Source: a virus
Length of the DNA stretch: 28,993 nucleotides
Direction: 5' to 3' (one strand)
Virus record (IMG/VR): IMGVR_UViG_3300031659_000061
Location: 1-28,993 of that record
Shown here one piece after another: positions 1 through 20,922 of this stretch; position 1 is the first letter of the stretch, and each line of letters starts with the position of its first letter. The notes below the pieces were generated by a model. It made no database searches. It was not told where the DNA came from and saw only the letters and a program-made list of their open reading frames with translations. A program made the position numbers and the translations under genes.

Positions 1-1304
1 CTAGGTTCTGTCATTGGACCTTTTCTCCAATCTTTCCACAATTCTTCGATCTTACCTAATGCATTTCCTATCTCAACAGAATCCATTGATTCAACATATT
101 CTTCGTTGACTGCTTTACTTTCGTATAATCCAATTATACCTTCATCATCAAGTTTTTTATATCCTTTTTTATCTAGCATAGTTAAAACATCATCCATTGT
201 ATCGTATCCAATTTCAGAGTCTAACTCTTCACTACCATTTCCAACAACAGTCCAATCATATATGAATTGGTTCCAATCATCGGTAGTAACTTCGTCTCCC
301 TTATTATAAGCTTTCATAAACGCTTTAACTATTGTCTTAGCGTCGTTTTCATTAATTACTGATTCGTTTATACAGAATTCATTAATTGATTTTAAATTTT
401 TCATAATATTGTTATTTTCTTTTATTGGACTTAGAGTATTTTGCAAAGCTTTATAAAAACTGTGTATACTTTTCGGTGTTAGTTGTTTGAATGTTTTTTC
501 ATCATCTATCTTAAGAGCATTTCTTACTTTAGATGCTGAGATGTTTTCACCTGTTCTAGGAATTTCAAAACCTTTAAAATCTGGATGAACTCCAAGTTGA
601 TCTCGGTATGCTTGCTTATCAATCATATTACCATAATCTTTTTTTCTATCAGTACCAAATCCCCACATCATTGGTTCATATGCTGGTCTTGCTGCTGCAA
701 ACATTGTATCAATTGCTCCATTAGGAACTACGAAACTTGCTTCTAAAAATGGATATTGCTTTTTCATTTTAGCAAACATTGCTTGTTGTGTATCTTCATC
801 AAATGGTCTTTTCTCTGGATCAGGCTTTCTACCTCTCACCATATAAACCACAACAGGCAAACCGTTTTCTTTATGCATTTTTTCAAATACCTTAACATGA
901 CCTAATGTAAAAGGTTGAAATCTACCAACAAACATGTTTACTGGTTTTTTACCTTGTTCTTTATGAGGAACTGATAAAGCTTCATTGATGATAGTTGTCT
1001 TTGTTGCATTCATAACTCTTTGTCCGTATGGTGATAATGAAAATGTTTTTACCCCTTCTTGATCTTCGCTTATGTTAAACAAAGTTTTGTTTCTATTTAA
1101 CCATCTCTTATGAGCTTTAAGCTCTGTTAATATTTTAGCCATTTCGTCTTCAGTAATATGACCATCAGCTATAGCTTCTATTATACTAGATCTTATTCTT
1201 GCAGATGTTGATACATTTTTTGCAGGGTGAGATTCAGTATACCGTCTTTTAACTGTTACTTTCTTTTCTGTTAAGAAATTGTTTATGTCTTTTAAGTTGT
1301 CCAT
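1..1304 (-). CDS. NadM-like nucleotidyltransferase with prohead-targeting leader (C-terminus cut by window edge)
   Basis: The frame is open from an ATG at 1304 to the left edge, 434 codons with no stop. Residues about 122-290 form an HIGH-superfamily nucleotidyltransferase. GRFQPFTLGH (127-136) carries the (H/T)xGH motif, and ISASKVR (255-261) matches the second conserved ATP-binding motif. The following LTPKSIHSFYKAL segment matches the VPKSVVEYIKEI end of archaeal NadM enzymes. This family transfers AMP from ATP to nicotinamide mononucleotide to make NAD, but other substrates (FMN, pantetheine phosphate) cannot be excluded. The N-terminus, MDNLKDINNFLTEK, resembles the capsid-targeting leaders of neighbouring genes. 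A second leader-like sequence, MKNLKSINEFCINES, begins in frame at residue 301 and opens an unrecognised acidic C-terminal domain, suggesting a gene fusion. INE-A at 106-109 and INE-S at 312-315 are candidate prohead-protease sites that would release the catalytic domain. No Shine-Dalgarno is visible. Confidence 0.78.
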   Translation of the reverse strand, partial: MDNLKDINNFLTEKKVTVKRRYTESHPAKNVSTSARIRSSIIEAIADGHITEDEMAKILTELKAHKRWLNRNKTLFNISEDQEGVKTFSLSPYGQRVMNATKTTIINEALSVPHKEQGKKPVNMFVGRFQPFTLGHVKVFEKMHKENGLPVVVYMVRGRKPDPEKRPFDEDTQQAMFAKMKKQYPFLEASFVVPNGAIDTMFAAARPAYEPMMWGFGTDRKKDYGNMIDKQAYRDQLGVHPDFKGFEIPRTGENISASKVRNALKIDDEKTFKQLTPKSIHSFYKALQNTLSPIKENNNIMKNLKSINEFCINESVINENDAKTIVKAFMKAYNKGDEVTTDDWNQFIYDWTVVGNGSEELDSEIGYDTMDDVLTMLDKKGYKKLDDEGIIGLYESKAVNEEYVESMDSVEIGNALGKIEELWKDWRKGPMTEP

Positions 1305-1319
1305 TTATAATCTATATAT

Positions 1320-4163
1320 TTACTTTTGTATTGCAATTCCCATATTAGCATTAAATGGCATTGGTATACTAGCTTTTTGCTCAAACACAAAATCTGCTGT
1401 GCTAAAGGGTACTGTTTTAAATTCAAAATTACCATTCTTAGTCTTTACATCTAAATACAATTGCTTGACATCTGTAACTATCTGTGAATACTTTGTTAAT
1501 TCTTTAGTATACTTTTGGTTAAGAGCATGAGTTAACTCAACCATTAATGGATAAAACACAACACCTAATTTGTGGTTGCCTTTGAACTTTTCAAAACCAT
1601 CAACGTTTGTTTTTAATTTTGCCTCATTCCATTCATAAGTTGATTTTTCCCAAAAGGTACGTAAGAACTTAGTAAATTCAGCTTTATCAGTATATAAATT
1701 GTCTAAGAATTCTTCAACTGCATCTTGTGTTGCATTGCTAGGCTGTAGCTCTGCTTCTTTCAAAAGATACCAGTATGCAGATTTGTTATGATCATTAAGG
1801 TTTACACTGCATAGAGACATAATCCTGCCATAAATCTTACTTCGTGCTAACTTCATAGGATTAACCCAAGTATCTATTACATTATTATAAAAATCCTGCT
1901 CACCTGCAGTTTCAAAACTCAATGGGCCTGGTACTCGTTTTTTGTCATTAGCCATTTTATAGATTCTTTGTATGATAGTATCGCCAGTTGGTGTACCGCC
2001 TTTTTTACCACCCTTTGATGATATACTGTATGTATCAAAATAGAAATCTACTAAAGGTTCACTTTCACCTGGTGGATAGCTTACACCATCACCAGGGTTT
2101 CTTAGTATGTTAAGTAGCATAAAGCCACCTAAAACTTCACCGTAGTCATTTCTGATATTCTGAATTGATAATTGATCAATACCATCAAATAAAGATTTTG
2201 TAATAGGGTATGTTATAGTGTGAACTGGTGCGTTTGCATATTCAGTAAAATCTTCAAATTTACCAGCATTTTTAGTATTACTACTAATTTCTTTAGCCGC
2301 CTCGAGCATAAAGTTTTTATAATTTTCTGGATAGTGTGAATCATTCAAGAATTTTTCTACAGGTGAAAGTAAACTTGCCCAATTTTTATAGTTAGTATTA
2401 CCCATACCTAATTTAGCTGGTGTTAAATCTTTCTTACCTACAATAGCAGCTTCCCCGGTTTTCTTAGAGATCTTATAACGATTTGTTATAATAAAGAAAT
2501 CACTAATGCCGTAAGATTGTCTTAGTTTATTATCAGTTGCTTTTTGTATAATTATTTTATATGCAGCATAATCACTAGAAAGATAACCAACTGGTAATTC
2601 TTCGATCTTAAACGATCTTTTCTTTAAACCTACTACATTTGATATAAGAAATTTTTCGATAGCAGCTTCTGCTGTCCCATCATTAGGACCAAAGTTACCC
2701 CTAAGTACTTCACCATGATCGCCAGTTCTATTTGAAACTTTAACAAAATCAGTTATCATTTTCATCTTGGTAGTATATTGCTTATATGCCTTTATCCAAA
2801 ACTTCTCAACATCACCCTTTGTAATTTTCTTTGCTTCATTTATATTGTCTTCATTAATATCAATCTTACCTAAATGAATAAAGTTATTATAATTAAGAAC
2901 TTTTTCTTCTACTACAAGTTCCTCTAAATCTTTGTAGTTTATAGTCTCTGTAACTTTAGTATTTAAGTAATCCCCGAATGTTTTGAATTCACCATCAGTT
3001 TCTTTATTAATTGCATCTGTGATTTTATCAACCATCTTGTTAAAATCTTCTACTACTGATTTTGTCATGATCGAACCTACTCTCTCAGGATTTCTTTTCT
3101 TCCTTAAAGATCCAACCATTATTTTATATAAGTTTTGTAAAGATTCAGATTTTTGTAATATTTCCCTGGTTCTATTATTTTTAATTAAGTCTAAATTTAA
3201 ATTAAACTCTGGGCCTTTTGCAAACTTTGCCTTTTCAATATCTAATTTTTGAAGATCAACACCTCTCTTGGCTATATAATCATTAAACAGATTTGACATT
3301 AATTCTAAGTATCTTTCTTCAGGTACTGATGTCAATAGTTCACCGCCACGCAATCCTCGCTCTTCGACGAATGCTAAGATATCTAATAATAAGATTTCAT
3401 TAATATCAGCAGGAGCTCTTCTTAAATCAATAGGTTCTTTATCTTTCATTAATCCTTGTGTATAAGGATCAATCATTTTTGCAGTAAATATTTGATTAGT
3501 GCCTTGTTTAAAAAACTTAAAGATTATAGAATCTATCGGTTTGTCTAAATCGTTTTGTAGCGTTGTTTGTTTGATCGTTGGATTTAATGCATCAATTAGA
3601 TATTTAGCAAATGAACTAGTTCCAAATACCTCTAACTGATCTTCCTTTGGTGTTTCAAGGAATTCTCTAATCTTTTTCTTTTGTGCTTCTTTTAAATAAC
3701 CACTAAAAATTGGAATAAGTGGAGTTACGTCAAAAGCAGAGGACCAATCTCTAAGTACCCTAGGATCTTCGATTACTTTGGCAATCTTTCCCTTTGGGTT
3801 TCTTACTTGTATATGTGTAAGTAATAAATTATTAGTTGGTAAGTTATCATACTTGATTGCACCAGGCTGGTTGTTAACAAAATATTGGAAACAGAATCTC
3901 CAATATTCTGGCAAGTCTTTTATATGACCTTCGGTTTTATTTAGAATGTATTGAATTGCTTGTTCATAATACATCATTAGTGTCCTGTCCACTAAATTGA
4001 TTGGTTGCTTATTGCTACCTTTAAAAAATCGTAGTTCATCGCCATGTCTCTCAAACGAGAATGACGATCCTGATAATTTCTCAGTCACCAATAAGTAATC
4101 TTTAAATAGATCATCTATGAATTGCTGCCCGGTTTCTTTATATATGTTTGTTAACTCTTTCAT
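1320..4163 (-). CDS. 947-aa protein with degenerate ligase-type nucleotidyltransferase N-terminus and unknown C-terminal region
   Basis: I do not recognise the whole protein. Residues 1-235 look like a diverged member of the covalent nucleotidyltransferase (DNA/RNA ligase) superfamily. EKLSG with K29 is in the place of motif I (KxDG). YWRFCFQYF around Q93 is in the place of motif III, where glutamate is usual. DSIIFKF (211-217) followed by FTAKM with K229 stands for motifs IV and V. The order and flanking residues parallel the KTDG protein encoded at 5067-6338. Three key acidic positions differ (KxSG for KxDG, Q for E in motif III, D for E in motif IV), so it may be catalytically dead or structural. 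The remaining ~700 residues are lysine-rich, mostly helical-looking and without a motif I can name. The start follows a promoter-like element and a terminator, so the gene probably heads its own transcript. Its N-terminus lacks a clear prohead leader. Confidence 0.8.
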   Translation of the reverse strand: MKELTNIYKETGQQFIDDLFKDYLLVTEKLSGSSFSFERHGDELRFFKGSNKQPINLVDRTLMMYYEQAIQYILNKTEGHIKDLPEYWRFCFQYFVNNQPGAIKYDNLPTNNLLLTHIQVRNPKGKIAKVIEDPRVLRDWSSAFDVTPLIPIFSGYLKEAQKKKIREFLETPKEDQLEVFGTSSFAKYLIDALNPTIKQTTLQNDLDKPIDSIIFKFFKQGTNQIFTAKMIDPYTQGLMKDKEPIDLRRAPADINEILLLDILAFVEERGLRGGELLTSVPEERYLELMSNLFNDYIAKRGVDLQKLDIEKAKFAKGPEFNLNLDLIKNNRTREILQKSESLQNLYKIMVGSLRKKRNPERVGSIMTKSVVEDFNKMVDKITDAINKETDGEFKTFGDYLNTKVTETINYKDLEELVVEEKVLNYNNFIHLGKIDINEDNINEAKKITKGDVEKFWIKAYKQYTTKMKMITDFVKVSNRTGDHGEVLRGNFGPNDGTAEAAIEKFLISNVVGLKKRSFKIEELPVGYLSSDYAAYKIIIQKATDNKLRQSYGISDFFIITNRYKISKKTGEAAIVGKKDLTPAKLGMGNTNYKNWASLLSPVEKFLNDSHYPENYKNFMLEAAKEISSNTKNAGKFEDFTEYANAPVHTITYPITKSLFDGIDQLSIQNIRNDYGEVLGGFMLLNILRNPGDGVSYPPGESEPLVDFYFDTYSISSKGGKKGGTPTGDTIIQRIYKMANDKKRVPGPLSFETAGEQDFYNNVIDTWVNPMKLARSKIYGRIMSLCSVNLNDHNKSAYWYLLKEAELQPSNATQDAVEEFLDNLYTDKAEFTKFLRTFWEKSTYEWNEAKLKTNVDGFEKFKGNHKLGVVFYPLMVELTHALNQKYTKELTKYSQIVTDVKQLYLDVKTKNGNFEFKTVPFSTADFVFEQKASIPMPFNANMGIAIQK

Positions 4164-4184
4164 TATTAGTTTTTAGTTATACCT

Positions 4185-4194
4185 TTTATATATT
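4185..4194 (-). promoter_or_regulatory. Late-promoter-like element AATATATAAA
   Basis: On the minus strand this reads AATATATAAA and ends 21 bases before the ATG at 4163. The same ten bases, or nine of them, precede the genes starting at 8620, 14435 and 25887. It resembles the T4 late promoter (TATAAATA, at -10, with no -35 box). It lies just downstream of a hairpin terminator at 4210-4238, as expected at a transcription-unit boundary. No transcription data support it. Confidence 0.5.
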
Positions 4195-4209
4195 TGATTG
4201 TTTAAGAAC

Positions 4210-4238
4210 AAAAAAGGTGAGACATTTAACTCACCTTT
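4210..4238 (-). terminator. Rho-independent terminator after the 108-aa gene
   Basis: AAAGGTGAG (4213-4221) pairs perfectly with CTCACCTTT (4230-4238) around an eight-base loop. On the minus strand the stem runs into six T residues (4215-4210). It lies about 40 bases past the stop codon of the gene at 4279-4605 and before the promoter-like element of the next gene, so it probably ends the transcript coming from the right. Confidence 0.8.
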
Positions 4239-4278
4239 AATACACTTAACGTGATTTTAATATATTATTACATTAGCA

Positions 4279-4605
4279 TTATGATATGTCCATGTGGTCA
4301 CCGTAGTCACATACTATACCCTTTTTCTTTAGTTGTTTACAAATCTTATCAAGTTCATCCGTTTCGTATCTACTTGGTACTTCATCTTTGATACCAATAG
4401 ACTTTAATAATTCATTAGTTGCATCTAAACTAATTTTAGATTTTTTACTAACATTTGCAGTTTTAGCAACATCATATAAAGATGTTCCATAAAATTTACC
4501 ACCCTGTTCAGTATAAACAAAATCAATTCCCTTGATGCTAAAGCCTTTACCACTTCGATCTTTGTATTTAATAGCCTCAGTTATAAATTCATTAAAGTTT
4601 TTCAT
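4279..4605 (-). CDS. Small putative encapsidated protein with prohead leader (108 aa)
   Basis: The function is not recognised. The N-terminus MKNFNEFITEA is nearly the same as the capsid-targeting sequence of T4 internal protein III (MKTYQEFIAEA). A prohead-protease cut is predicted after E10. The rest (residues 11-108) is a small basic domain with a lysine-rich middle (KKSKIS) and a C-terminus containing two cysteines. The start codon lies one base past the stop of the gene at 4607-4966, so the two are probably translated together. The gene is followed by a strong terminator. It is best read as a candidate internal or core protein carried in the head. That rests on the leader and the neighbours, since no domain family is recognised. 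Confidence 0.75.
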   Translation of the reverse strand: MKNFNEFITEAIKYKDRSGKGFSIKGIDFVYTEQGGKFYGTSLYDVAKTANVSKKSKISLDATNELLKSIGIKDEVPSRYETDELDKICKQLKKKGIVCDYGDHMDIS

Positions 4606-4606
4606 A

Positions 4607-4966
4607 TTAGTCTAATTTAGATTTACCATCCCATACTTTAACAGTATAATCTTTACCATCTTTTTCTAAGTACCTAGGATCTTTTTTAGTCGGTCTCATT
4701 AATAATCCAGCAGAATTTGCATTTCTACCATGATCACCTTGTTTCATTGTGTTTTTTCTCCATGAAGAACCGCCTGAAAAATAAGATGAAAACTGACCAC
4801 GATTATCTCTGTCATCTGGATCTAAACCTTTTAAAGTTAAAATAAATTTCTGCAAGTCTCCCCATTTAGATTTACCTTTCTTTTCAGCAAAATCCAAAAC
4901 TTGTTTTTTGATTGTTTCCAATTCGTTTGATTCATTTAGAGAATCGTAGCTATGCATATGTTTCAT
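4607..4966 (-). CDS. Small putative encapsidated protein (119 aa)
   Basis: The function is not recognised. The N-terminus, MKHMHSYDSLNES, is a looser version of the leader shared by the neighbouring genes, with NE-S as the candidate cleavage site at residues 11-13. Residues 15-50 look helical and lysine-rich. The middle is rich in Gly, Ser, Arg and Asn (about 55-90), and the C-terminus is basic and charged. The protein resembles small internal or core proteins of T4-like heads in size and charge only. It is separated from the next upstream gene by 100 A/T-rich bases (4967-5066) in which I see no clear terminator. It is separated from the downstream 108-aa gene by one base. Confidence 0.68.
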   Translation of the reverse strand: MKHMHSYDSLNESNELETIKKQVLDFAEKKGKSKWGDLQKFILTLKGLDPDDRDNRGQFSSYFSGGSSWRKNTMKQGDHGRNANSAGLLMRPTKKDPRYLEKDGKDYTVKVWDGKSKLD

Positions 4967-5066
4967 ATCTTTTGTATTTTTATTATATTATAAATATAAT
5001 CAATTTTGTTTAGTTTCGTACTATAAACTCTTGTTTTGTTTTGGAAAGTTATTAACAATCTTAAAA

Positions 5067-6338
5067 CTATCTACCGTACCTCATAATACCCATCAACTGA
5101 TTAATTGCAGCAAAAGTTCCAGTTAATTTATAAGTAGTACCTTTGTACTTAAATACAAGACCTTCTGTTGGTATGATTGATTCTACTCCACCAATCCTAT
5201 CTAATCTTTCAAGTTCTTTAGTTACCTTTTCAATCTGGTCTAAACTACCACTCTTTTTAATACCTTCTGCTGCTGCTTTGATTTGCTTGTGAAGTCTTTG
5301 CATTTCTTTAGTAGGATTAGCTGCTACGAAGTTACTTGCATTCTTTAATATAACACTCCCTAACTCTAAGAACAGATCTTCAAACGGTCTAATGTTTTCT
5401 TTTTGTTTCTTTTTAACATCTTCTTTATCAAACTTCTTAATGATTGCTGCCTTTTCTTTACCTAGATCTTTATCAAGAGATCTTAGATTAAGTGTCTTTT
5501 TATCAGCATATGCCCATCTTAATAATAAACCTTCTTTTTGCTGTTGTGATAGTTCAGGGAAGTTTGCTTCGATTTGATCTCTCCACCACATTTCGTGATA
5601 TTTTGAAACCTCATCGTCGTCTGATAAATTATATACATTCTTCAAGTCTTCAACCTTTTTAATAAATTTAGCTACATTTTCATCAAAGTTAATATCCTTT
5701 CTTAATGCTAGAACCTTTGGAGGGATTATCGTAAAAGTTTTACCGATATCCGATTTAAGCTTCTTAAGAACTCCGGCTATTTTTTTAGCAGCAGATGGAT
5801 CATCTCCAATAATTTTACCATCACCGTCTGTCTTTTTAATACCATGAAATTGTATAACATCAATATCATAATGGATAACATTAGGATTCTTTGAGTATAT
5901 TAATTCCATATTCATGAAGTTCTTACCATTATCAAATACTTCATCCTGTGTTTTAACTGGAAGCTTTATTAATAAGTTTGCTAAATCAGCGGCGGCAAAC
6001 TGAAAAGTATCCTGCACTAATTTACTAGCATGACCGTCAAACTTTTGATTAATTCCTTGTAAATCTAAAGGTGATCTCATTTCACCTTGATTTCTTGCGA
6101 ATTTAACTTCACCGTCTTGTATTGTAGCAAATAAGTTTTGGCCATCTGTTTTTTCTGTAGGTGCTTCCTCGAAATTCAATTCACCACTTAAACCAGAATT
6201 AATGAGATTTTTAAAGTCTCTAAATGTTAAGTTCTTATTATCAAATGGATGCTTCATATGACCAGCAGCTCCACCTTCTAACAACAATGGCTGACTTTTG
6301 TCAGTCAGCCATTGTTCAAACAGTTTTATATGTTTCAT
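5067..6338 (-). CDS. ATP-dependent ligase-type covalent nucleotidyltransferase with prohead-type leader
   Basis: The protein has the signature motifs of the DNA/RNA ligase superfamily, which attach AMP to an active-site lysine. Motif I is TEKTDGQ with K63, followed by FARNQGE with R82. Motif III is FMNMELIY with E145. Motif IV is TEGLVFKY with E392 and K397, and motif V is TYKLTG with K404. About 240 residues separate motifs III and IV, far more than in a minimal ligase, and this insert is helical and lysine-rich. No OB domain follows motif V, and the protein ends at residue 423. The N-terminus MKHIKLFEQWL, with LLLE-GG at 18-22, fits the leader and cleavage pattern of the neighbours, so the enzyme may be carried in the head. 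Whether it seals RNA or DNA cannot be told. A 13-bp perfect hairpin lies within codons 8-19. Confidence 0.8.
   Translation of the reverse strand: MKHIKLFEQWLTDKSQPLLLEGGAAGHMKHPFDNKNLTFRDFKNLINSGLSGELNFEEAPTEKTDGQNLFATIQDGEVKFARNQGEMRSPLDLQGINQKFDGHASKLVQDTFQFAAADLANLLIKLPVKTQDEVFDNGKNFMNMELIYSKNPNVIHYDIDVIQFHGIKKTDGDGKIIGDDPSAAKKIAGVLKKLKSDIGKTFTIIPPKVLALRKDINFDENVAKFIKKVEDLKNVYNLSDDDEVSKYHEMWWRDQIEANFPELSQQQKEGLLLRWAYADKKTLNLRSLDKDLGKEKAAIIKKFDKEDVKKKQKENIRPFEDLFLELGSVILKNASNFVAANPTKEMQRLHKQIKAAAEGIKKSGSLDQIEKVTKELERLDRIGGVESIIPTEGLVFKYKGTTYKLTGTFAAINQLMGIMRYGR
6283..6316 (-). repeat. 13-bp perfect inverted repeat inside the start of the ligase-like gene
   Basis: AACAATGGCTGAC (6283-6295) and GTCAGCCATTGTT (6304-6316) are perfect reverse complements separated by eight bases. 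The structure is inside the coding region, about 20 bases downstream of the ATG. It is not followed by a T-run on the minus strand, so it is not an ordinary terminator. A stem this close to the start could slow translation initiation or be a binding site. Confidence 0.8.
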
Positions 6339-6379: not shown

Positions 6380-6835
6380 TTATTTAAGGTTTCCTTTAGA
6401 ATCACCTGCAGCATATGCATATCTACCTTCACCACCTTCATCAGCAACAATAATCACTTTTACATCTCCTAGCATTCCTTTATATGCTGCTGTATATGGG
6501 GCTGGCCACATTCCTGTTGCACGTTGCCCGGAGATACTATTATCATTCCCAAGTAAGTCAGCTTTTTTATCTTTAGGGTCAAATTTTGCATCATCATTAG
6601 TAGATGCAACCATTACCATATCAGCAACAGATCTTACTCCTAGATATTTTAAAGCTGGTTTATAATTTTTATTAACATCAGCCAGTGTTAATTCTTTCCC
6701 ATTATCATCATAACCATCCCCATCGCGTAAAACGGTAGAAAGAGTGTTGTAAGGACCGCTCTGAACCCAAGATGGTAATTCGGCTTCATTAATTGATTCA
6801 TTTACAAATTCTGCAAACTTTTTTATATTATTCAT
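6380..6835 (-). CDS. Putative encapsidated protein with prohead leader (151 aa)
   Basis: The function is not recognised. The leader MNNIKKFAEFVNES has the F-x-x-F-V-N-E-S pattern, and a second possible cleavage site, INE-A, follows at residues 16-19. After it comes a compact acidic domain rich in Asp, Gly and Ala. It has a predicted strand-rich C-terminal half (residues 110-145) ending in AYAAGDSKGNLK. No catalytic motif or membrane segment is visible. The gene is 18 bases downstream of the 588-aa acidic protein gene and 41 bases upstream of the ligase-like gene, within the run of leader-bearing genes. It is probably a head-interior cargo or core protein, a role based on the leader alone. Confidence 0.72.
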   Translation of the reverse strand: MNNIKKFAEFVNESINEAELPSWVQSGPYNTLSTVLRDGDGYDDNGKELTLADVNKNYKPALKYLGVRSVADMVMVASTNDDAKFDPKDKKADLLGNDNSISGQRATGMWPAPYTAAYKGMLGDVKVIIVADEGGEGRYAYAAGDSKGNLK

Positions 6836-6853: not shown

Positions 6854-8620
6854 TTATGATCCCATAGTAGATTGTAAAGCTCCAACCATTGCACCATAGT
6901 CTCCATCATGTTTAGAAATTAAACCGTCAATTACTTCAGTTGCTTTAGCTTCATCATAATCATCACCGAATGCTTTTTTCAACACTGCAGTTGCGTATTC
7001 TTTGAATTGATCATCAGAAGTAATATCTTCCTCATTAATCTTAGCTTCTTTTACTAATGGAATTTCAATGCCATCTTCAGATACATCGTTTGCCTCATCA
7101 GGAATTACTTCAGTAACCTTTTGATCTGTTGTAACTAATTTACCAGCTAATGCAGATAAGTTTTTAACTTTACCCTTATTCATTATATCACCAGCAATAC
7201 CAGCTGCAGTTTCTGAACCATCACCTTTAATTGTTGGAATAGCAATACCGTCAGCTCCAGCTACTTGATCTTTTACTTCAGCTTTTTCAACTTTAGCAAT
7301 TACTTCAGCAACACCTTCTTTAACATGCACGTCTTTAGCCCACTGAATATAACTCTCATCACCTTGTTCAAAATCAGATATAATAGTCTCTAAATCTTTT
7401 TTATCATACCCAGCAGATTTACCGAGTTTCAAAAATGATCCTTTTGATTTTAGATCCTTATCAGTTAAATCATTAAACCAATCTAATAAGTTACTTTGTT
7501 GTTTAGCTTCTTTAACTGCTTTAGGTTTACCCTTTGCGTTTACTTCATCTTCGATATCCTCGGCGCGATCTTCATCAACCTCATCTTCATAATCTTCTTC
7601 ACCTTTTTTGGTTTTAGATTTATCACCTTTATTTCCACCAAGTGTTACTTCATCAAAACCTTCATCAGTTTTATCATCATCTTCATAATCTTCTTCATCT
7701 TCTTCAGACTCAGAATCATCACCTTTATTTCCACCCCAAACAACTTTGTCATAGGCTTCATTTACAAAATTAGAAAAAGACATAATAGCAGATTCATTCT
7801 TTTCAGCATCTTCCTCTTCCTCTTTATCAAACTTAGCATCTTTCTTTAAAGATTTGATTTGAGCATCATCAGATTTAACAGCTCCTTTATAATGGTCTGC
7901 TTTTTCTTTATCATCCTCAGAATCAACTTTCTTATCTCCTTTGTCTTCTAACTCATCACCATCTTTTTCATCGTCCTTTCCTTTTGACTCATCGGACTCT
8001 GAAAGGGGATCAGCAGAAGCAGCAACAGGAACAGCATAGTCTTCTTCTTCTTCATTATCATCACGATAATTAACGTTCTTATTAATAGTTTCTTCTTTTT
8101 CTTTAATGAAATCTTCAAAAGCCATAATTCTTTTGGTAGCTTTAGGTGTTTCAACTTCTTCATCAGCAACAGGAACTCCATCTTCATCTGATACTTCATC
8201 AGCTTCTTCTGGTACTTCCTTTGTAACTTCTTGTTCATCTGATACTAAATCATCATCGGCTTCTTCTTCAGTAGCATCTTCCTCTACTTCTTCGACTTCA
8301 GCAGCAACTTCTTCTTCACCTTCTTTAGATTTAGCTTCACCTTCTACAGATTTAGGTTTACCTTTTGCATTTACTTCATCTTCGATATCTTCAGCACGAT
8401 CTTCTTCAAGATCTTCTTCAGAAATATTATCTTTATTGGCAAAGCTTTTGGATAGTGCTTCTAGTTTAGAAAGAAGATCTTTCTCTTTCTTTAATTCATC
8501 TATACTGTTAAAACCAATCTTTTTGATCAATTCTTCGACAGCTTCTTGGCTTACTTTTGCAGATTCTGTGATCGGTTGATCCTTAGCAGACATTGCAGAA
8601 AACTTTTTGACTGATTTCAT
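6854..8620 (-). CDS. Very acidic mosaic prohead core/internal-type protein (588 aa)
   Basis: The start is taken at the ATG at 8620. The open frame reaches 8812, but the extra 64 codons lie mostly inside uvsW, and the 8620 start gives a leader, MKSVKKFSAMSAKDQPITES, with a cleavage-like ITE-S. Long stretches are Glu/Asp-rich. Two further leader-like sequences lie inside, each preceded by Ile and headed by Met: MAFEDFIKEK (from residue 166) and MSFSNFVNEA (from 280). EDRAEDIEDEVNAKGKPK occurs at 73-90 and 350-367, GGNKGD twice (296-301, 328-333), and PEEADEVSDEDG-like blocks at 137-148 and 507-517. The C-terminal part (about 375-430 and 535-588) looks folded, ending in a helical segment. Acidity and leader suggest a scaffold/core or internal head protein like T4 gp22, gp67 or gp68, processed into several pieces. 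No homology to those is claimed. Confidence 0.78.
   Translation of the reverse strand: MKSVKKFSAMSAKDQPITESAKVSQEAVEELIKKIGFNSIDELKKEKDLLSKLEALSKSFANKDNISEEDLEEDRAEDIEDEVNAKGKPKSVEGEAKSKEGEEEVAAEVEEVEEDATEEEADDDLVSDEQEVTKEVPEEADEVSDEDGVPVADEEVETPKATKRIMAFEDFIKEKEETINKNVNYRDDNEEEEDYAVPVAASADPLSESDESKGKDDEKDGDELEDKGDKKVDSEDDKEKADHYKGAVKSDDAQIKSLKKDAKFDKEEEEDAEKNESAIMSFSNFVNEAYDKVVWGGNKGDDSESEEDEEDYEDDDKTDEGFDEVTLGGNKGDKSKTKKGEEDYEDEVDEDRAEDIEDEVNAKGKPKAVKEAKQQSNLLDWFNDLTDKDLKSKGSFLKLGKSAGYDKKDLETIISDFEQGDESYIQWAKDVHVKEGVAEVIAKVEKAEVKDQVAGADGIAIPTIKGDGSETAAGIAGDIMNKGKVKNLSALAGKLVTTDQKVTEVIPDEANDVSEDGIEIPLVKEAKINEEDITSDDQFKEYATAVLKKAFGDDYDEAKATEVIDGLISKHDGDYGAMVGALQSTMGS
7520..7573 (-). repeat. 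54-bp direct repeat, copy 2 (partner at 8351-8404)
   Basis: This copy and 8351-8404 encode the same 18 residues. They differ at five bases, all silent third positions (CGC/CGT, GCC/GCT, GAG/GAA, AAC/AAT, AAG/AAA). This copy has G or C at every one of the five. Confidence 0.85.
8351..8404 (-). repeat. 54-bp direct repeat, copy 1 (partner at 7520-7573)
   Basis: This copy encodes the same 18 residues as 7520-7573 (EDRAEDIEDEVNAKGKPK) and has A or T at each of the five differing third positions. It is the N-proximal member of the internal duplication in the acidic mosaic protein. Confidence 0.85.
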
Positions 8621-8638
8621 GTTAGTTGTTTTATTTTT

Positions 8639-8648
8639 TTTATATATC
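8639..8648 (-). promoter_or_regulatory. Late-promoter-like element GATATATAAA
   Basis: The minus strand reads GATATATAAA, nine of ten bases matching the element before the genes at 4163, 14435 and 25887. It ends 18 bases before the ATG at 8620. This supports 8620 rather than 8812 as the start of the acidic protein. Confidence 0.48.
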
Positions 8649-8675
8649 CATGTCTTACTTAAAAGATATTCTATA

Positions 8676-10181
8676 TTAGAATCTGATGTTTTGTACATCA
8701 AACGGAAACTTTTCTTCTTTATATATTGTTCGCCTAGCAATACCATGTCTATAAACGTAATTAACCCAGTCATGTTCCTCGGCTTTATATCTAAAATCAT
8801 CAATAAAGTCATAGATTTTCACTACATCCTTTGATTCATGTTTTCTTAATCCCCTACCTATACTTTGTCTAATGATCACTTCTGATTTAAAACTTTCAGT
8901 GAAGAATATGTTATGTATATTTTTTATAGATATACCGGTTGAGAATGTTCCATATGATGCTACAATAATAACATCATCGTTTTTTTCCATCCTGGCTTTA
9001 AACTCTTCTCTTATATCTACATTAACTGAACCATCTACATAGTAAACTTTCTTGTCAGTTATTTGTCTTAGTTTTTGATACACCTTTTCGCCGTATGCTA
9101 TTTTATGAAATAGTACTAATGAATTTGATGTTGATTTTTTAATTACTTGGCAAACAAAATCTAATCTTTTTTCACTTTGATTAATAAAGTTTTGTTCTAA
9201 TCCAAATAATTTCTGTCTATCTTGTGGGTTCTTTGAAAGAAACGAGAATGATTCTTTCTGAGCATCAGTTGCATAATCCATGTGGAGCTGCATAACTTTA
9301 CATGAAGCAATAAATCCTTGCTGTTGTAATTGGCTTGCCTTTACTTGAGTAACCAAAGGTCCCATTGCCGACATTAAGCTTAGTCTATTAACAGTTCCTT
9401 TCTTAGGTATTGTTCCACTTAAACCAAACCTAAAATCACAGTGCCAACATTTATCCATTATCTTTTGAATAGATGCAGCTTTTGCTTTATGAGTTTCATC
9501 GACAAACACAGCATCAAATTGACTAAAGTATTCCTCATCTTTTTTAACTAGCGATTGGTATGTACCTATTACTAAGTTAGAACTTTTTCTAATCTCTGCA
9601 CCTGCATATACTTGCTGAGTCTTTAATGGAACGCCACACCTGTTATATTCATCGAAATCACCAGTAGCTTGTAATACTAAATTTACATTAGGAACAATCA
9701 TTAAGATTTTTTTCTTTCCTAACTTATCCATCATATATGCAACTACCATAAAGGATATTAGAGTTTTACCTGCAGATGTTGCAAGCTCAGCTAAACACCT
9801 TCTATATTTTAATATTTTAAATGCTGCATCTATTTGATATTCTCTAGGTTTGAAATTAGGGTGTTTTTCAAAAATACTTGTTACCCATAACCTAAATGAT
9901 TCTTCGTTGATGTCAGTATCAAAAATATCAGTGATACCATTTAAAGAACATTGGAAATCATAATCTTTACAGATATCTAATATCTCTTTCCATAAACCAG
10001 CTGGTATTTTATTTCTTTTTACAAAGGAGACGTTACCGTCCCATACTTTCTTTTTAACTAAAGGATGAAATCTCCACCCTTCAATCTTTTTAGTTAAACT
10101 GCTCTTCAACTGCTCGTACTCTAATTCAGTACATGCATCGATGACCAAAAACTTTTTATTTTCTGATAGGGATAGTTCCAT
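8676..10181 (-). CDS. uvsW: UvsW-type superfamily 2 DNA/RNA helicase
   Basis: At 501 aa this is the same size as T4 UvsW (503 aa). Superfamily 2 motifs appear in order: REYQ near 113-116, Walker A ATSAGKT (134-140), the DEAH-type box DETH (228-231), motif III LSGT (254-257), the motif V region around TGISIK (415-420) and motif VI QSIGRGLR (439-446). The first ~100 residues correspond to the N-terminal DNA-binding domain seen in T4 UvsW. In T4, UvsW unwinds R-loops and D-loops, drives branch migration and helps switch from origin- to recombination-dependent replication. It lies three bases downstream of the uvsY-like gene, as uvsW and uvsY are neighbours in T4. Its 3' end stops 55 bases before the start of the acidic head protein. 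Confidence 0.95.
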   Translation of the reverse strand: MELSLSENKKFLVIDACTELEYEQLKSSLTKKIEGWRFHPLVKKKVWDGNVSFVKRNKIPAGLWKEILDICKDYDFQCSLNGITDIFDTDINEESFRLWVTSIFEKHPNFKPREYQIDAAFKILKYRRCLAELATSAGKTLISFMVVAYMMDKLGKKKILMIVPNVNLVLQATGDFDEYNRCGVPLKTQQVYAGAEIRKSSNLVIGTYQSLVKKDEEYFSQFDAVFVDETHKAKAASIQKIMDKCWHCDFRFGLSGTIPKKGTVNRLSLMSAMGPLVTQVKASQLQQQGFIASCKVMQLHMDYATDAQKESFSFLSKNPQDRQKLFGLEQNFINQSEKRLDFVCQVIKKSTSNSLVLFHKIAYGEKVYQKLRQITDKKVYYVDGSVNVDIREEFKARMEKNDDVIIVASYGTFSTGISIKNIHNIFFTESFKSEVIIRQSIGRGLRKHESKDVVKIYDFIDDFRYKAEEHDWVNYVYRHGIARRTIYKEEKFPFDVQNIRF

Positions 10182-13027: not shown

Positions 13028-13039
13028 AGTTTGTTTCAG
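13028..13039. repeat. 12-bp inverted repeat, left arm, at the 3' end of the co-chaperonin gene
   Basis: AGTTTGTTTCAG spans the stop codon of the co-chaperonin gene and is the exact reverse complement of CTGAAACAAACT at 13348-13359. The two arms bracket that single gene. Confidence 0.7.
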
Positions 13040-13320
13040 ACTACATGAATATTTTTATCTATTATTGCAGTTATATCGTTTTCTCGTAAACTAAATACAG
13101 TATTGCCATCATATTTAAATTCAGTACCTGCTAAATCATGAAAAAGAACCTTTATACCAATTTGATATTCTGCATCTTCTACACCATCACCAACACCAAT
13201 GATCATTCCTGAATATGGCGGAGCATACATACCGTCTTGTTTGACTAAAAGTATACTACCTTTTCTATCTGGTTGTTCGTCCTTTTTTAAAAATATTCTA
13301 TTCCCTAGAGGTTTTAACAT
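13036..13320 (-). CDS. 31: GroES/gp31-like co-chaperonin
   Basis: At 94 aa it has GroES length and is shorter than T4 gp31 (111 aa). The order of segments is that of the Cpn10 fold: MLKPLGNRIFLKKDE at the start, a mobile loop around residues 18-33, YSGMIIGVGDGVED, KVLFHDLAGTEFKYDG and a closing SLRENDITAIID strand (GroES has SESDILAIVE). The loop sequence (DRKGSILLVKQDG) differs from GroES, as expected for a phage version. Phage gp31 replaces GroES on host GroEL, mainly to fold the large capsid protein. The gene stands alone between gaps of 175 and 93 bases and is bracketed by a 12-bp inverted repeat, which may mark separate regulation. Confidence 0.88.
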   Translation of the reverse strand: MLKPLGNRIFLKKDEQPDRKGSILLVKQDGMYAPPYSGMIIGVGDGVEDAEYQIGIKVLFHDLAGTEFKYDGNTVFSLRENDITAIIDKNIHVV

Positions 13321-14078: not shown

Positions 14079-14435
14079 TTATATTCTCTTACCGAGAACT
14101 GCACCTAGCGCAGCACCAACAAGACGTGAAGTCATTAAATCATACAAAGCACCCTTTTGGATACCTAGAACTTTAGCAATTGCCTTTCCTATAGTTTTAC
14201 CTAAAGCAAAACCAGTAAGTCCACCAAATATACTTCCCAATATACCTTCGCTTACAATTTCATCTACTACAGTTTCTAAATCCTTCCCGTTCTTATGCTC
14301 TTCCATAATTCTGTCTACTGCCATATCAATAGCTGCATCCTGTTCCTCGGTTAAAGTATGTGATTCATTTAGTAGTTTTTGGATATCTACACCATCATCA
14401 TGTGATTCTGTTAAATAGTCTTTAAAGGTTTTCAT
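14079..14435 (-). CDS. Glycine-zipper protein with prohead leader (118 aa)
   Basis: The N-terminus MKTFKDYLTES is one of the best matches to the T4 internal-protein leader (MKTYQEFIAEA), with a second candidate site LLNES at residues 21-25. An acidic helical stretch follows (27-62). The C-terminal half has small-residue-rich hydrophobic segments with glycine-zipper spacing, GSIFGGLTGFALGKTIGK (67-84) and LVGAALGAVLGKRI (105-118). This arrangement, a packaged leader and a membrane-inserting tail, fits a head-carried protein that enters or crosses the host membrane during DNA entry. That role is inference, and it could also be a small holin-like or capsid-lattice protein. A strong promoter-like element lies 17 bases upstream of the ATG. 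Confidence 0.75.
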   Translation of the reverse strand: MKTFKDYLTESHDDGVDIQKLLNESHTLTEEQDAAIDMAVDRIMEEHKNGKDLETVVDEIVSEGILGSIFGGLTGFALGKTIGKAIAKVLGIQKGALYDLMTSRLVGAALGAVLGKRI

Positions 14436-18402: not shown

Positions 18403-20922
18403 TTACGTTGGTGGGCCTCCGATATTAATTACATCATAGCTTGTACCCATTATAGACCATCCAAATTGTACTGTTGATGATTCTCTATTATAGGCAGAGT
18501 GACCTGTACCACTCGTATTCATTCCCCACTGTGATATTTCAAGACCGTCCCATATTAGATCGTATGTTTGTATTTTACCCTCACCTTGTAGCATATCTGA
18601 AGAACTGAAACCAGAGTACAATGTTGTGTATCCTGCAGAATAAGTCTGTCCACCATTTGTTCCTGCCGGTCTGTACCAACTAGACCATGCTGCTCCTTGT
18701 GGAATTGAATTCCTATATTTTGGTAGCCTAATTTGGATCATTCCCCAACTTTCAATAAAGTTTGAAGACTGATTTGCTTGCCACAGATATTTTGCTGCTT
18801 GGTGATATACCTTAAGTGTTAATTTTTGACCTGGATATGCTCCTTCTGGGAAATTAAAAGTATAATCATAATTTGTATTACTTTGTGTCTGACCAGTGAA
18901 TCCTGTGATAGACTGACCTATCCCATATGATAAGTATATAAGTGGTACATTTAAATCTGCAGTAGTTGGCATGCCTGCTGTTGATCCTGGGGATTGCGCG
19001 CCTGTAGTATTCCAACCCCATTTCGTAGTTGGCTTACCGCTCCCACCAGAACTAGTCCAACTAAAATTGAGGGAATTAGGTCGTGAATTACTTAGGGAGT
19101 TTAACTCTCTGACTCTTTTTAATACTAATGGTGTTGCTAAACCGAGTTTACTTTTACTTAATGAAATATATTCTTCCATCCCATCAGTGTCTCTAACTGC
19201 TAACTCTAATGAATTATCATACATGAATTCATCACTAGGGACAGGTAACGATACGGATTCATTACCCATCACTATTTTTATTAAACCTGCGTTTATACCG
19301 GTTGTAGCCTGTAAGCCACCAACCCAACTTTCCATAGTTGCAGCAGGTACATACGCAGTATCACTTTCCGTTCCAGTTTGTCTAAATATTGATAGATCAC
19401 TACCCAATACAGTATCCATACTGTTTGATTGGGAGACATTTGAATATGGCTGTGTTATAGTACTTCCAGCTTGTGTAGCTGCCCAGGTTAACCTTCCCAC
19501 AGTTCTAATATGAGGGTTTGGTGTACTACCACCAGTTATCGCAGCATAATCTAAAGTGATACTAGGCTGCGCTAATGCAGACGGACTTGTATATTTACCA
19601 AGTACTATACTGGAATTAGCTCGTATTAATAATTCACCTTCTGTTGAGTGTTGGTCTATTTGTATATTACCGACTGTTGTAGTTTCAGTTTGTGCTATTG
19701 ATATAGTACCACCAGCGCTAGTTGCAGTAATACCACCAGCAGCAGAATATAAACCAATATTTCCACCTATAGACGTACCTAGGTTAGTTTGTAATCTGAT
19801 ATCACTACCTGCAGTAACTCTAAATTGACCACCTGGTGAAGTAACAAAATTAGTATTACCTGCTAGAACTTGAAATGTTCCAACGTTTGTGATTTGTCCT
19901 CCAGTTACAGGTGTGACATCGATGCTACCACCTGATTCAATTGTTGTTGTAACGGTAGCCCCTAGCGTTGCTACTTTAAATTTATTAGTAGCAGTGTTAC
20001 CTGTTCCAACTTCTATTTCAAAGTTTGAATTTTGCCCTGGCCAGTGCTGATCATTATCTTGCCCAGTTACTAATCTAATTGATCTACCTGCTTCATAACT
20101 CTGCGAACGCATATCAGTAAGAACTTGGAATCCTATCAAATCTGCCTGTGATGTTGGTGAAGTAGGTGCCTTTGGTACTCTCATTACTAATCTGTCATCA
20201 ACTCCTAGGTGAATGTTACTCAACGAGCCTATGCTTGTCTGATTATACTTATCTGTTGGTTGAAACCCACCACCTTGAAACGTGATTGAAGTCCCAGCTG
20301 TATCTTTTTGATGAATGAACAATGAAGAAACATCTGATGATATGCTACCTGCTATTGCATCAGGTATAATATATTTTGCAGTTAGTGGTATACTAGGATC
20401 TACTTCGTCTGCTGTTGTTGGCACCCCACCTATTACGATAGATGGTACACCTTCATTATCAGTAGTTGCACCACCGTTTACCCCAGGTTCATATCCAAAG
20501 GGTTGATTATATCTAGTATTTTTTCCTTGATTTACATACGGTGAACCAAAAGTTCCACCAAATCCACCACCGGCACCAGCAGGGCCAATTGGCCCCATTA
20601 AATCAACAGTAGTTATCAACCATGATAAACCATCATACTCCCAAACCTCACCATTTAATTGCAAGTAATAATCGCTAATCCTTGGTGTAGCTGTTGGATA
20701 TGCAGCGTTTGGTAATGTACCTGGTAATACTGTTGCAGTATCCTCGTACCATGTACTCCCTTTAGGGCCTCTTCCACCAGCAGGACCAGTTGGCCCGGAT
20801 CCACCAATAGGACCAGCAGGACCACCACCGTTAAGTAGCAACTGGTCAAAATTAAAGTTAGTCTTATCGACAAGTTGTGAAATAGTATCTGATGCTATTA
20901 TTTCTTGTATAGTGATTGGCAT
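18403..20922 (-). CDS. Tail fibre with collagen-like repeats (839 aa)
   Basis: The protein starts with a short helix-forming segment (MPITIQEIIASDTISQLVDK) that probably attaches it to the baseplate. Residues 32-56 are a Gly-X-Y collagen-like run (GPAGPIGGSGPTGPAGG and beyond), and a second short Gly/Pro-rich stretch lies at 110-123. Such runs form trimeric stalks in phage fibres. A long Thr/Gly/Ser-rich beta region follows (about 200-480) with many NxG and GG turns, and the C-terminal 200 residues (about 620-839) look like a globular receptor-binding head rich in Trp, Tyr and Gly. Trimer formation and receptor binding are inferred from this architecture. The gene lies between the 77-aa gene and the very large 1651-aa gene, nine bases after the latter. 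Confidence 0.8.
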   Translation of the reverse strand: MPITIQEIIASDTISQLVDKTNFNFDQLLLNGGGPAGPIGGSGPTGPAGGRGPKGSTWYEDTATVLPGTLPNAAYPTATPRISDYYLQLNGEVWEYDGLSWLITTVDLMGPIGPAGAGGGFGGTFGSPYVNQGKNTRYNQPFGYEPGVNGGATTDNEGVPSIVIGGVPTTADEVDPSIPLTAKYIIPDAIAGSISSDVSSLFIHQKDTAGTSITFQGGGFQPTDKYNQTSIGSLSNIHLGVDDRLVMRVPKAPTSPTSQADLIGFQVLTDMRSQSYEAGRSIRLVTGQDNDQHWPGQNSNFEIEVGTGNTATNKFKVATLGATVTTTIESGGSIDVTPVTGGQITNVGTFQVLAGNTNFVTSPGGQFRVTAGSDIRLQTNLGTSIGGNIGLYSAAGGITATSAGGTISIAQTETTTVGNIQIDQHSTEGELLIRANSSIVLGKYTSPSALAQPSITLDYAAITGGSTPNPHIRTVGRLTWAATQAGSTITQPYSNVSQSNSMDTVLGSDLSIFRQTGTESDTAYVPAATMESWVGGLQATTGINAGLIKIVMGNESVSLPVPSDEFMYDNSLELAVRDTDGMEEYISLSKSKLGLATPLVLKRVRELNSLSNSRPNSLNFSWTSSGGSGKPTTKWGWNTTGAQSPGSTAGMPTTADLNVPLIYLSYGIGQSITGFTGQTQSNTNYDYTFNFPEGAYPGQKLTLKVYHQAAKYLWQANQSSNFIESWGMIQIRLPKYRNSIPQGAAWSSWYRPAGTNGGQTYSAGYTTLYSGFSSSDMLQGEGKIQTYDLIWDGLEISQWGMNTSGTGHSAYNRESSTVQFGWSIMGTSYDVINIGGPPT

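Follow-up and report, generated by a model that had tools for sequence, protein, structure and literature searches.

A pair of ligase-fold proteins with exchangeable modules in a T4-superfamily phage: a possible virion-borne cassette for nucleic-acid end repair

Why would a phage keep, side by side, one protein that looks like a working RNA ligase and another in which the chemistry of the same fold appears to be slipping away? The question is raised by a 28,993-nucleotide stretch of viral DNA (IMG/VR record IMGVR_UViG_3300031659_000061, positions 1–28,993; hereafter the window), part of a T4-superfamily phage whose listed marker genes all lie on the minus strand. This strand also encodes a protein of 947 amino acids (aa) at 1320–4163 and one of 423 aa at 5067–6338, together with every motif and module of the two whose coordinates are given below. 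An earlier reading of the bare sequence (the original prediction) had taken the pair for ligase-fold paralogues, one intact and one degenerate, and it had both reading frames and all the motifs that it named in the right place. The cassette built around the pair is an unusual arrangement of known folds and, as far as we found, neither it nor the gene set has been described in the literature. The reading that we prefer, at roughly even chances, is that of a virion cargo for nucleic-acid end repair in which the 947-aa protein, as a pseudo-ligase, serves as a docking hub.

Sequence profiles say little about the pair: neither protein found anything usable in Pfam, PHROGs, NCBIfam, PADLOC or the PDB sequence profiles, and neither matched Pfam RNA_ligase (PF09414), whose cut-off of 27 bits was not reached by the relative L131 either (14.1 bits). 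The AlphaFold2 (AF2) model of the 947-aa protein shows the fold of an RNA ligase at its N-terminus. In Foldseek, T4 Rnl2 (2hvr) is matched with an E-value of 9.7e-6 and a probability of 1.00, ahead of trypanosome REL1, Trl1 and Naegleria Rnl, and in the viral structure library BFVD the matches are RNA ligases with E-values down to 4e-9. Residues 1–235, where the ligase fold had been proposed, are accordingly modelled as a nucleotidyltransferase and not as some other fold, with the motifs on strands and in the order typical of RNA ligases: I (EKLSG, residues 28–32 with K29; 4068–4082), III (FCFQYF, 90–95 with Q93; 3879–3896), IV (DSIIFKF, 211–217 with D211; 3513–3533) and V (FTAKM, 226–230 with K229; 3474–3488). 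Residues ~240–430 can be assigned to the same conserved N-terminal unit because huge phages encode this unit alone, as stand-alone homologues of 440–453 aa in phages of 634–735 kb. The ligase-fold unit, taken as residues 1–400 (2964–4163), consists of the nucleotidyltransferase domain and a conserved helical part. What had been described as some 700 fused residues of unknown sequence are indeed fused, but resolve into this helical part and, after it, a C-terminal module that is open to exchange.

How much of the chemistry is left can be read from 77 distinct N-termini of the 947 type. Position 29 holds K in 70 of them, N in three, Q in two and D in two; the nucleophilic lysine has been replaced in four lineages, namely L030 (N), L131/L136 (Q), L141 (N) and L142–L144 (D/N). 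On the tree this amounts to three changes by parsimony, at least two of them forced by well-supported branches, a count that is approximate as two of the groups lacking the lysine sit on long branches. The motif III residue is Q, E, D or N, with Q in the window's clade and E or D in most others, motif IV keeps D or E in all 77 sequences, and motif V has a single lysine, whose position (227 or 229) varies with the clade, or none at either position, as in the copies of huge phages and in L131 and L136. The window's own copy retains K29, the motif IV acid D211 and K229, and has lost the motif III acid (Q93) and the first motif V lysine (T227). The claim that key acids are gone at three positions thus holds for motif I, where S31 stands in place of D, and for motif III, but not for motif IV. 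Purifying selection on the unit is nonetheless strong, with ratios of nonsynonymous to synonymous substitution rates (dN/dS) of 0.06–0.09 against close relatives, which are rough values given that dS here approaches or exceeds 1.

Next to this catalytically unreliable partner stands an intact-looking ligase. Throughout the 65 distinct sequences of the 423-aa family, the RNA-ligase motif set (I K-x-D-G, III E, IV EG, V K) is complete: motif I is EKTDG (residues 62–66; 6141–6155; E62, K63, D65 and G66 invariant), III is MNMELIY (142–148; 5895–5915; E145 invariant), IV is EGLVFKY (392–398; 5145–5165; E392 and G393 invariant) and V is TYKLTG (402–407; 5118–5135; K404 invariant), with R82 as a further invariant residue. 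The invariants also hold in the copy of Microcystis phage Mel-JY01, and inspection of the copies in LR756500 and LR756508 finds the same motifs. In the AF2 model, which has a predicted local distance difference test (pLDDT) score of 81, the motifs again lie on strands in RNA-ligase order, a long helical insertion separates motifs III and IV, and RNA or DNA ligases make up nearly all of the top ~28 PDB matches, each of them weak by itself (E-values of 0.02–1.1). A ligase fold is therefore supported for this protein as well, albeit more weakly than for its neighbour, and the conserved residues suggest ligase activity. The dN/dS of 0.16–0.19 is likewise rough (dS near or above 1).

The two families share the motif order I-III-IV-V, yet the common motif spacing that had been claimed is not there: the distances are 64 versus 82 residues (I–III), 118 versus 247 (III–IV) and 18 versus 12 (IV–V) in the 947-aa and 423-aa proteins, respectively. 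Nor does hhalign detect a significant relation between the 947 N-terminal and 423 families, and since there is no profile similarity, we speak of a shared fold rather than of paralogues or of demonstrable recent descent. Fold and motif order are also those of T4 Rnl2 and Rnl1, and the 64 residues from K29 to motif III equal the spacing between K35 and E99 of Rnl2. Differences from the T4 enzymes are the Q of motif III, the D of motif IV, the single motif V lysine, the loss of the nucleophile in some lineages and the fused, exchangeable module in the 947-aa protein, and the helical insertion, the K-L-T of motif V and an invariant EGGAAGHMxHPFD block before motif I in the 423-aa protein. The idea of an intact ligase paired with a degenerate one thus survives at the family level, with intact motifs in 65 sequences of one family and a replaced nucleophile in four lineages of the other, although K29 is retained in the copy of the window, where some adenylylation may persist. 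It is unusual for a ligase-fold protein to have lost its nucleophile and yet to remain, next to an intact partner, under strong selection.

Alternatively, both proteins might be active ligases of different specificity, the N-terminus of the window's clade adenylylating despite Q93 and S31 and the modules providing end-healing activities. The predominance of K29, the acid at position 211 in every sequence, the retention of K29, K48, D211 and K229 in the window's clade, the strong purifying selection and the T4 Rnl2-like fold would all fit this explanation. We find it rather doubtful, as it has to contend with N, Q or D in place of the nucleophile in four lineages where the gene and either its position or its fold have been preserved, with the missing motif III acid in the window's own clade, and with a motif V that has at most one lysine left.

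The pairing itself is tight. Wherever both genes are visible (133 of 133 loci), the 947-type and 423-type genes lie on the same strand and no more than 2.3 kb apart, usually by about 170 bp; three further loci are cut by a contig end, and the 133 loci partly overlap, so that they stand for fewer independent phages. Adjacency is thus invariable in the fetched viral loci, but it is not universal outside this group: in the huge-phage records LR745206, LR756501 and LR756504, the ligase-fold unit occurs alone with no detectable 423-type gene, and in Mel-JY01 and LR756508 a 423-type protein occurs without the unit. One locus (L013, 6001–13242) has the pair of ligase and ligase-fold/NMNAT protein duplicated in tandem. 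In the window, a small protein of 119 aa (MKHMHSYDSLNES; 4607–4966, minus strand) is encoded between the two genes and is kept there in L128 and L132.

The pair resembles phage RNA-repair systems, i.e. Rnl1 or Rnl2 with a kinase-phosphatase (PMC7824862), in that a protein of RNA-ligase fold is accompanied by other nucleic-acid enzymes. Unlike in those systems, no kinase or phosphatase was seen beside the pair, and several relatives hold a separate PF09414 ligase. For the latter reason, we set aside the idea that the pair is simply the phage's ordinary RNA ligase. In L168, L169 and L170, this canonical enzyme (E about 1e-18 to 1e-20) is encoded far from the pair.

What the N-terminal unit carries differs from phage to phage. 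Relatives of the 947-aa protein fall into three C-terminal types, which we label A (NMNAT-like, found in most), B (nuclease-like, as in the window) and C (a longer third type). Type A is a nicotinamide mononucleotide adenylyltransferase (NMNAT)/cytidylyltransferase-like domain (PF01467) with the motif GRFQPFTLGH. Type B comprises residues 441–947 in the window (507 aa; 1323–2843), and occurs as a separate gene of 512–523 aa directly after an N-terminus+NMNAT gene in L134, L137 and L139, and within one protein, together with the N-terminal unit and the NMNAT-like domain, in L131, L133 and L136. The C-terminal modules have been exchanged between relatives: L077 and L066 are 60.8% identical over the N-terminus and 94.9% over the C-terminus, and L066 and L043 are 97.5% identical over the N-terminus and 22% over the C-terminus. 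Of the roles originally offered for the degenerate partner (scaffold, inhibitor or nucleic-acid sensor), a scaffold in the form of a docking hub agrees best with the N-terminal unit being fused to unrelated modules that are swapped on it. A hub of this kind with exchange of modules would represent a new architecture.

The type B module matched no known fold or family. Its core, E676...D706...S716-K717-x-G (1992–2138), nevertheless follows a pattern that recalls PD-(D/E)xK nucleases, and E676, D706, D710, S715, S716, K717 and G719 are invariant among 22 distinct sequences. A homologue is present in the Kyanoviridae phage C48C1 (hhalign 97.5%, E-value 5e-12; hmmsearch 5e-22). Other cyanophage genes upstream of a DUF6267-type gene, such as Syn33_180, were considered as homologues too, but only the C48C1 gene matched. 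Common descent of types B and C was also dropped; despite a similar S-x-K-x-G-x-G pattern, hhalign gives 0.3%.

Conserved N-termini with swapped C-termini, nuclease-like motifs in type B and neighbours resembling packaged head proteins might also be expected if the 947 family were not a repair factor but an injected effector with polymorphic forms. The N-terminal unit would then sense nucleotides or nucleic acids, or inhibit a ligase or defence factor of the host, and the C-terminus would be the effector, a nuclease or nucleotidyltransferase. This seems unlikely to us, since the 947-aa protein has no capsid-targeting sequence, there is neither an immunity-like partner nor a match in the defence library, and the commonest module is an NMNAT-like enzyme instead of something toxin-like.

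In the window, this NMNAT-like enzyme is the gene next to that of the 947-aa protein (3–1304, minus strand, truncated at the window end), rather than being fused to the ligase-fold unit as in most relatives. Its product, which begins with a capsid-targeting-like N-terminus (MDNLKDINNFLTEKK), scores 37 bits against PF01467 (cut-off 21) and 31.9 against TIGR00125 (cut-off 27.7), and contains the motifs (T/H)xGH and ISxxxxR as TLGH (within GRFQPFTLGH) and ISASKVR. The domain does not reach the NMNAT equivalogs TIGR01527 and PRK01153, with 21–25 bits against cut-offs of 127–181. Together with the type A C-termini, it matches the known phage NMNAT/cytidylyltransferase-like proteins (PF01467, phrog_3041, phrog_395), from which the present ones differ in their fusion to ligase-fold proteins, or their location beside them, and in falling short of the equivalog cut-offs. 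In Mel-JY01 and LR756508, the NMNAT-like domain is fused to the 423-type ligase. A 484 kb phage (L145, 3483–6230) encodes a 915-aa protein that combines an NMNAT-like domain and a 423-type ligase with a ParB-N-like stretch.

Such fusions to both ligase-fold families, in different phages, could speak for a counter-defence centred on NAD, in which NAD+ is restored by the NMNAT-like enzyme, while the ligase-fold proteins, instead of being nucleic-acid ligases, serve as nucleotidyltransferases in NAD-related metabolism or NAD capping; restoration of NAD+ by phages has been described (PMC7824862, PMC12774641). Scores so far below the NMNAT equivalog cut-offs, and ligase folds that match RNA ligases and not NAD enzymes, make this explanation improbable.

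Where would the cassette act? Several features suggest that its proteins may be packaged in the head. The N-terminal 21 residues of the 423-aa protein (MKHIKLFEQWLTDKSQPLLLE, followed by GG; 6276–6338) form a candidate capsid-targeting sequence with an LxE/G end: E21 and G22 are invariant in all 65 sequences, and residues 1–26 of the model, spanning LLLE/GG, nearly all have a pLDDT below 50. In T4, the capsid-targeting sequence brings internal proteins into the prohead (PMC3012670), and the protease cleaves after glutamate (PMC5694885). Two neighbouring products of the minus strand look similar: a 108-aa protein (4279–4605) with the T4 internal-protein-like N-terminus MKNFNEFITEA and a weak match to the internal head protein family phrog_2667 (residues 1–18, E-value 0.058), and a 151-aa protein (6380–6835) with a capsid-targeting-like N-terminus (MNNIKKFAEFVNES) and a match to phrog_241, head morphogenesis (E-value 0.0046). 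A Peptidase_S77 prohead protease was found in nine of 16 related contigs, G013 included, and not in the window phage's own 53 kb fragment. Short N-termini such as MKNFNEFITEA and MKTFKDYLTES, and the S77 protease of relatives, recall the T4 internal proteins IPI, IPII and IPIII, which differ from the putative cargo proteins of the cassette in that the latter carry enzyme-fold domains. A cytidylyltransferase has been found in virions of the cyanophage S-CREM2, although the authors caution about co-purification (PMC10665884).

The same surroundings, with their acidic capsid-targeting-like small proteins and T4-type head context, could mean that the pair has a purely structural role, enzyme folds having been taken up into the head core with no activity of their own. 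We regard this as very improbable, for the catalytic residues of the 423-aa protein are invariant across phages as distant as those of LR756500, LR756508 and Mel-JY01.

Put together, virion cargo for end repair would work as follows. The 423-aa protein, a divergent RNA-ligase-like nucleotidyltransferase, would be an active ligase, probably forming ligase-AMP on K63, from which the prohead protease would remove the first ~21 residues at LLE/G. In the 947-aa protein, residues 1 to ~430 would have retained the ligase fold with relaxed chemistry, lost in several lineages, and would persist as a unit to which the active ligase, the nucleic acid of that ligase or both can bind or dock. Modules attached to this unit (NMNAT-like in most relatives, nuclease-like and of 507 aa here, with the NMNAT-like enzyme as the next gene, or of the third type) or encoded beside it would prepare or modify ends. 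Carried in the head, these proteins could process and seal nucleic-acid ends, or give them an adenylyl- or NAD-type modification, very early in infection, probably in order to counter host damage. Packaging, ligase activity, the docking role and the substrate are inferred, and counter-defence by RNA repair, an accepted proposal for phage RNA ligases in general (PMC7824862), may by analogy apply to this cassette. A more far-reaching version, which we hold only tentatively, is that of a modular end-processing machine delivered by the virion, with an active ligase, a pseudo-ligase hub and interchangeable modules (NMNAT-like, nuclease-like and third type) plugged in by recombination.

Several points weigh against virion cargo for end repair. 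K29 is retained in 70 of the 77 sequences, including the window copy, which might thereby preserve residual adenylylation. The 423-aa model has no single PDB match reaching an E-value of 0.001, and where T4 ligases have a second lysine in motif V, the 423 family has an invariant T406, which also bears on its proposed activity. As for packaging, the 947-aa protein lacks a capsid-targeting sequence, the capsid-targeting regular expression fits 17 of 64 members of the 423 family against a background of 13% and is too blunt to serve as evidence, and the invariant EGGAAGHMxHPFD block may be kept for the fold rather than for targeting. Finally, hhalign finds no significant relation between the 423 family and an alignment of the DUF6267-type proteins.

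These DUF6267-type proteins belong to comparable gene sets in Syn33, C48C1, S-RIM14, ACG-2014d and the Stenotrophomonas phage DLP_6. The Kyanoviridae and DLP_6 encode a KxDG protein with an HxxHxED preface, often beside a cytidylyltransferase gene, although no such neighbour is annotated near the DUF6267-type gene of ACG-2014f, Bellamy and RN05-S. The KxDG copies of DLP_6 and C48C1 are members of Pfam DUF6267 (PF19782) and start like capsid-targeting sequences, and in C48C1 the preceding gene is the type B homologue. As in the 423-aa protein, a histidine-containing block precedes KxDG, and EG and KLVxR follow in the same order; motif III, however, has D instead of E. The 947 N-terminus showed no significant hhalign relation to the DUF6267-type alignment either, and given the non-significant result for the 423 family, we do not claim that DUF6267 is the same family. 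L140, L160, L161 and L167 carry DUF6267-type proteins of T4-like phages that have a ligase-type look (KxDG, EG, KLVxR) and no functional annotation. We found no literature on DUF6267 in the library searched; for Syn33_181, a cyanophage protein of this type, relatives were detected by tblastn in 470 phage records. Should the proposed machine exist, it would, given the related DUF6267 sets of cyanophages, be very common in marine waters. The cassette suggests a function for phage genes now called hypothetical, including those of the DUF6267 type, and opens two questions to experiment: whether a kit for processing RNA ends is injected by T4-type phages, and what purpose NMNAT-like enzymes in the head of marine phages, or close to it, may have.

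As to the wider setting, the minus-strand marker genes comprise a gp32-like single-stranded DNA-binding protein (PF08804, phrog_224), a UvsW-type helicase (phrog_16), UvsY (phrog_231), a primase (phrog_47), a RuvC-like resolvase (phrog_159) and a tail-tube protein (phrog_45). An identical copy of the gene pair is carried by the 53 kb viral contig L001, and gp23 was found in seven of ten related contigs. The 652-aa open reading frame at 6854–8812 probably starts at 8620 (MKSVKKFSAM...), where relatives begin with MKPIKKFSA...ILES, and encodes a very acidic, repetitive protein resembling a head-core protein. Outside the cassette, 14079–14435 encodes a 118-aa protein with the T4-internal-protein-like N-terminus MKTFKDYLTES. 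A GroES-like co-chaperonin gene (phrog_3188) lies at 13036–13320, and 18403–20922 encodes a probable fibre protein of 839 aa, in which collagen-like GPAGP repeats occur close to the N-terminus.

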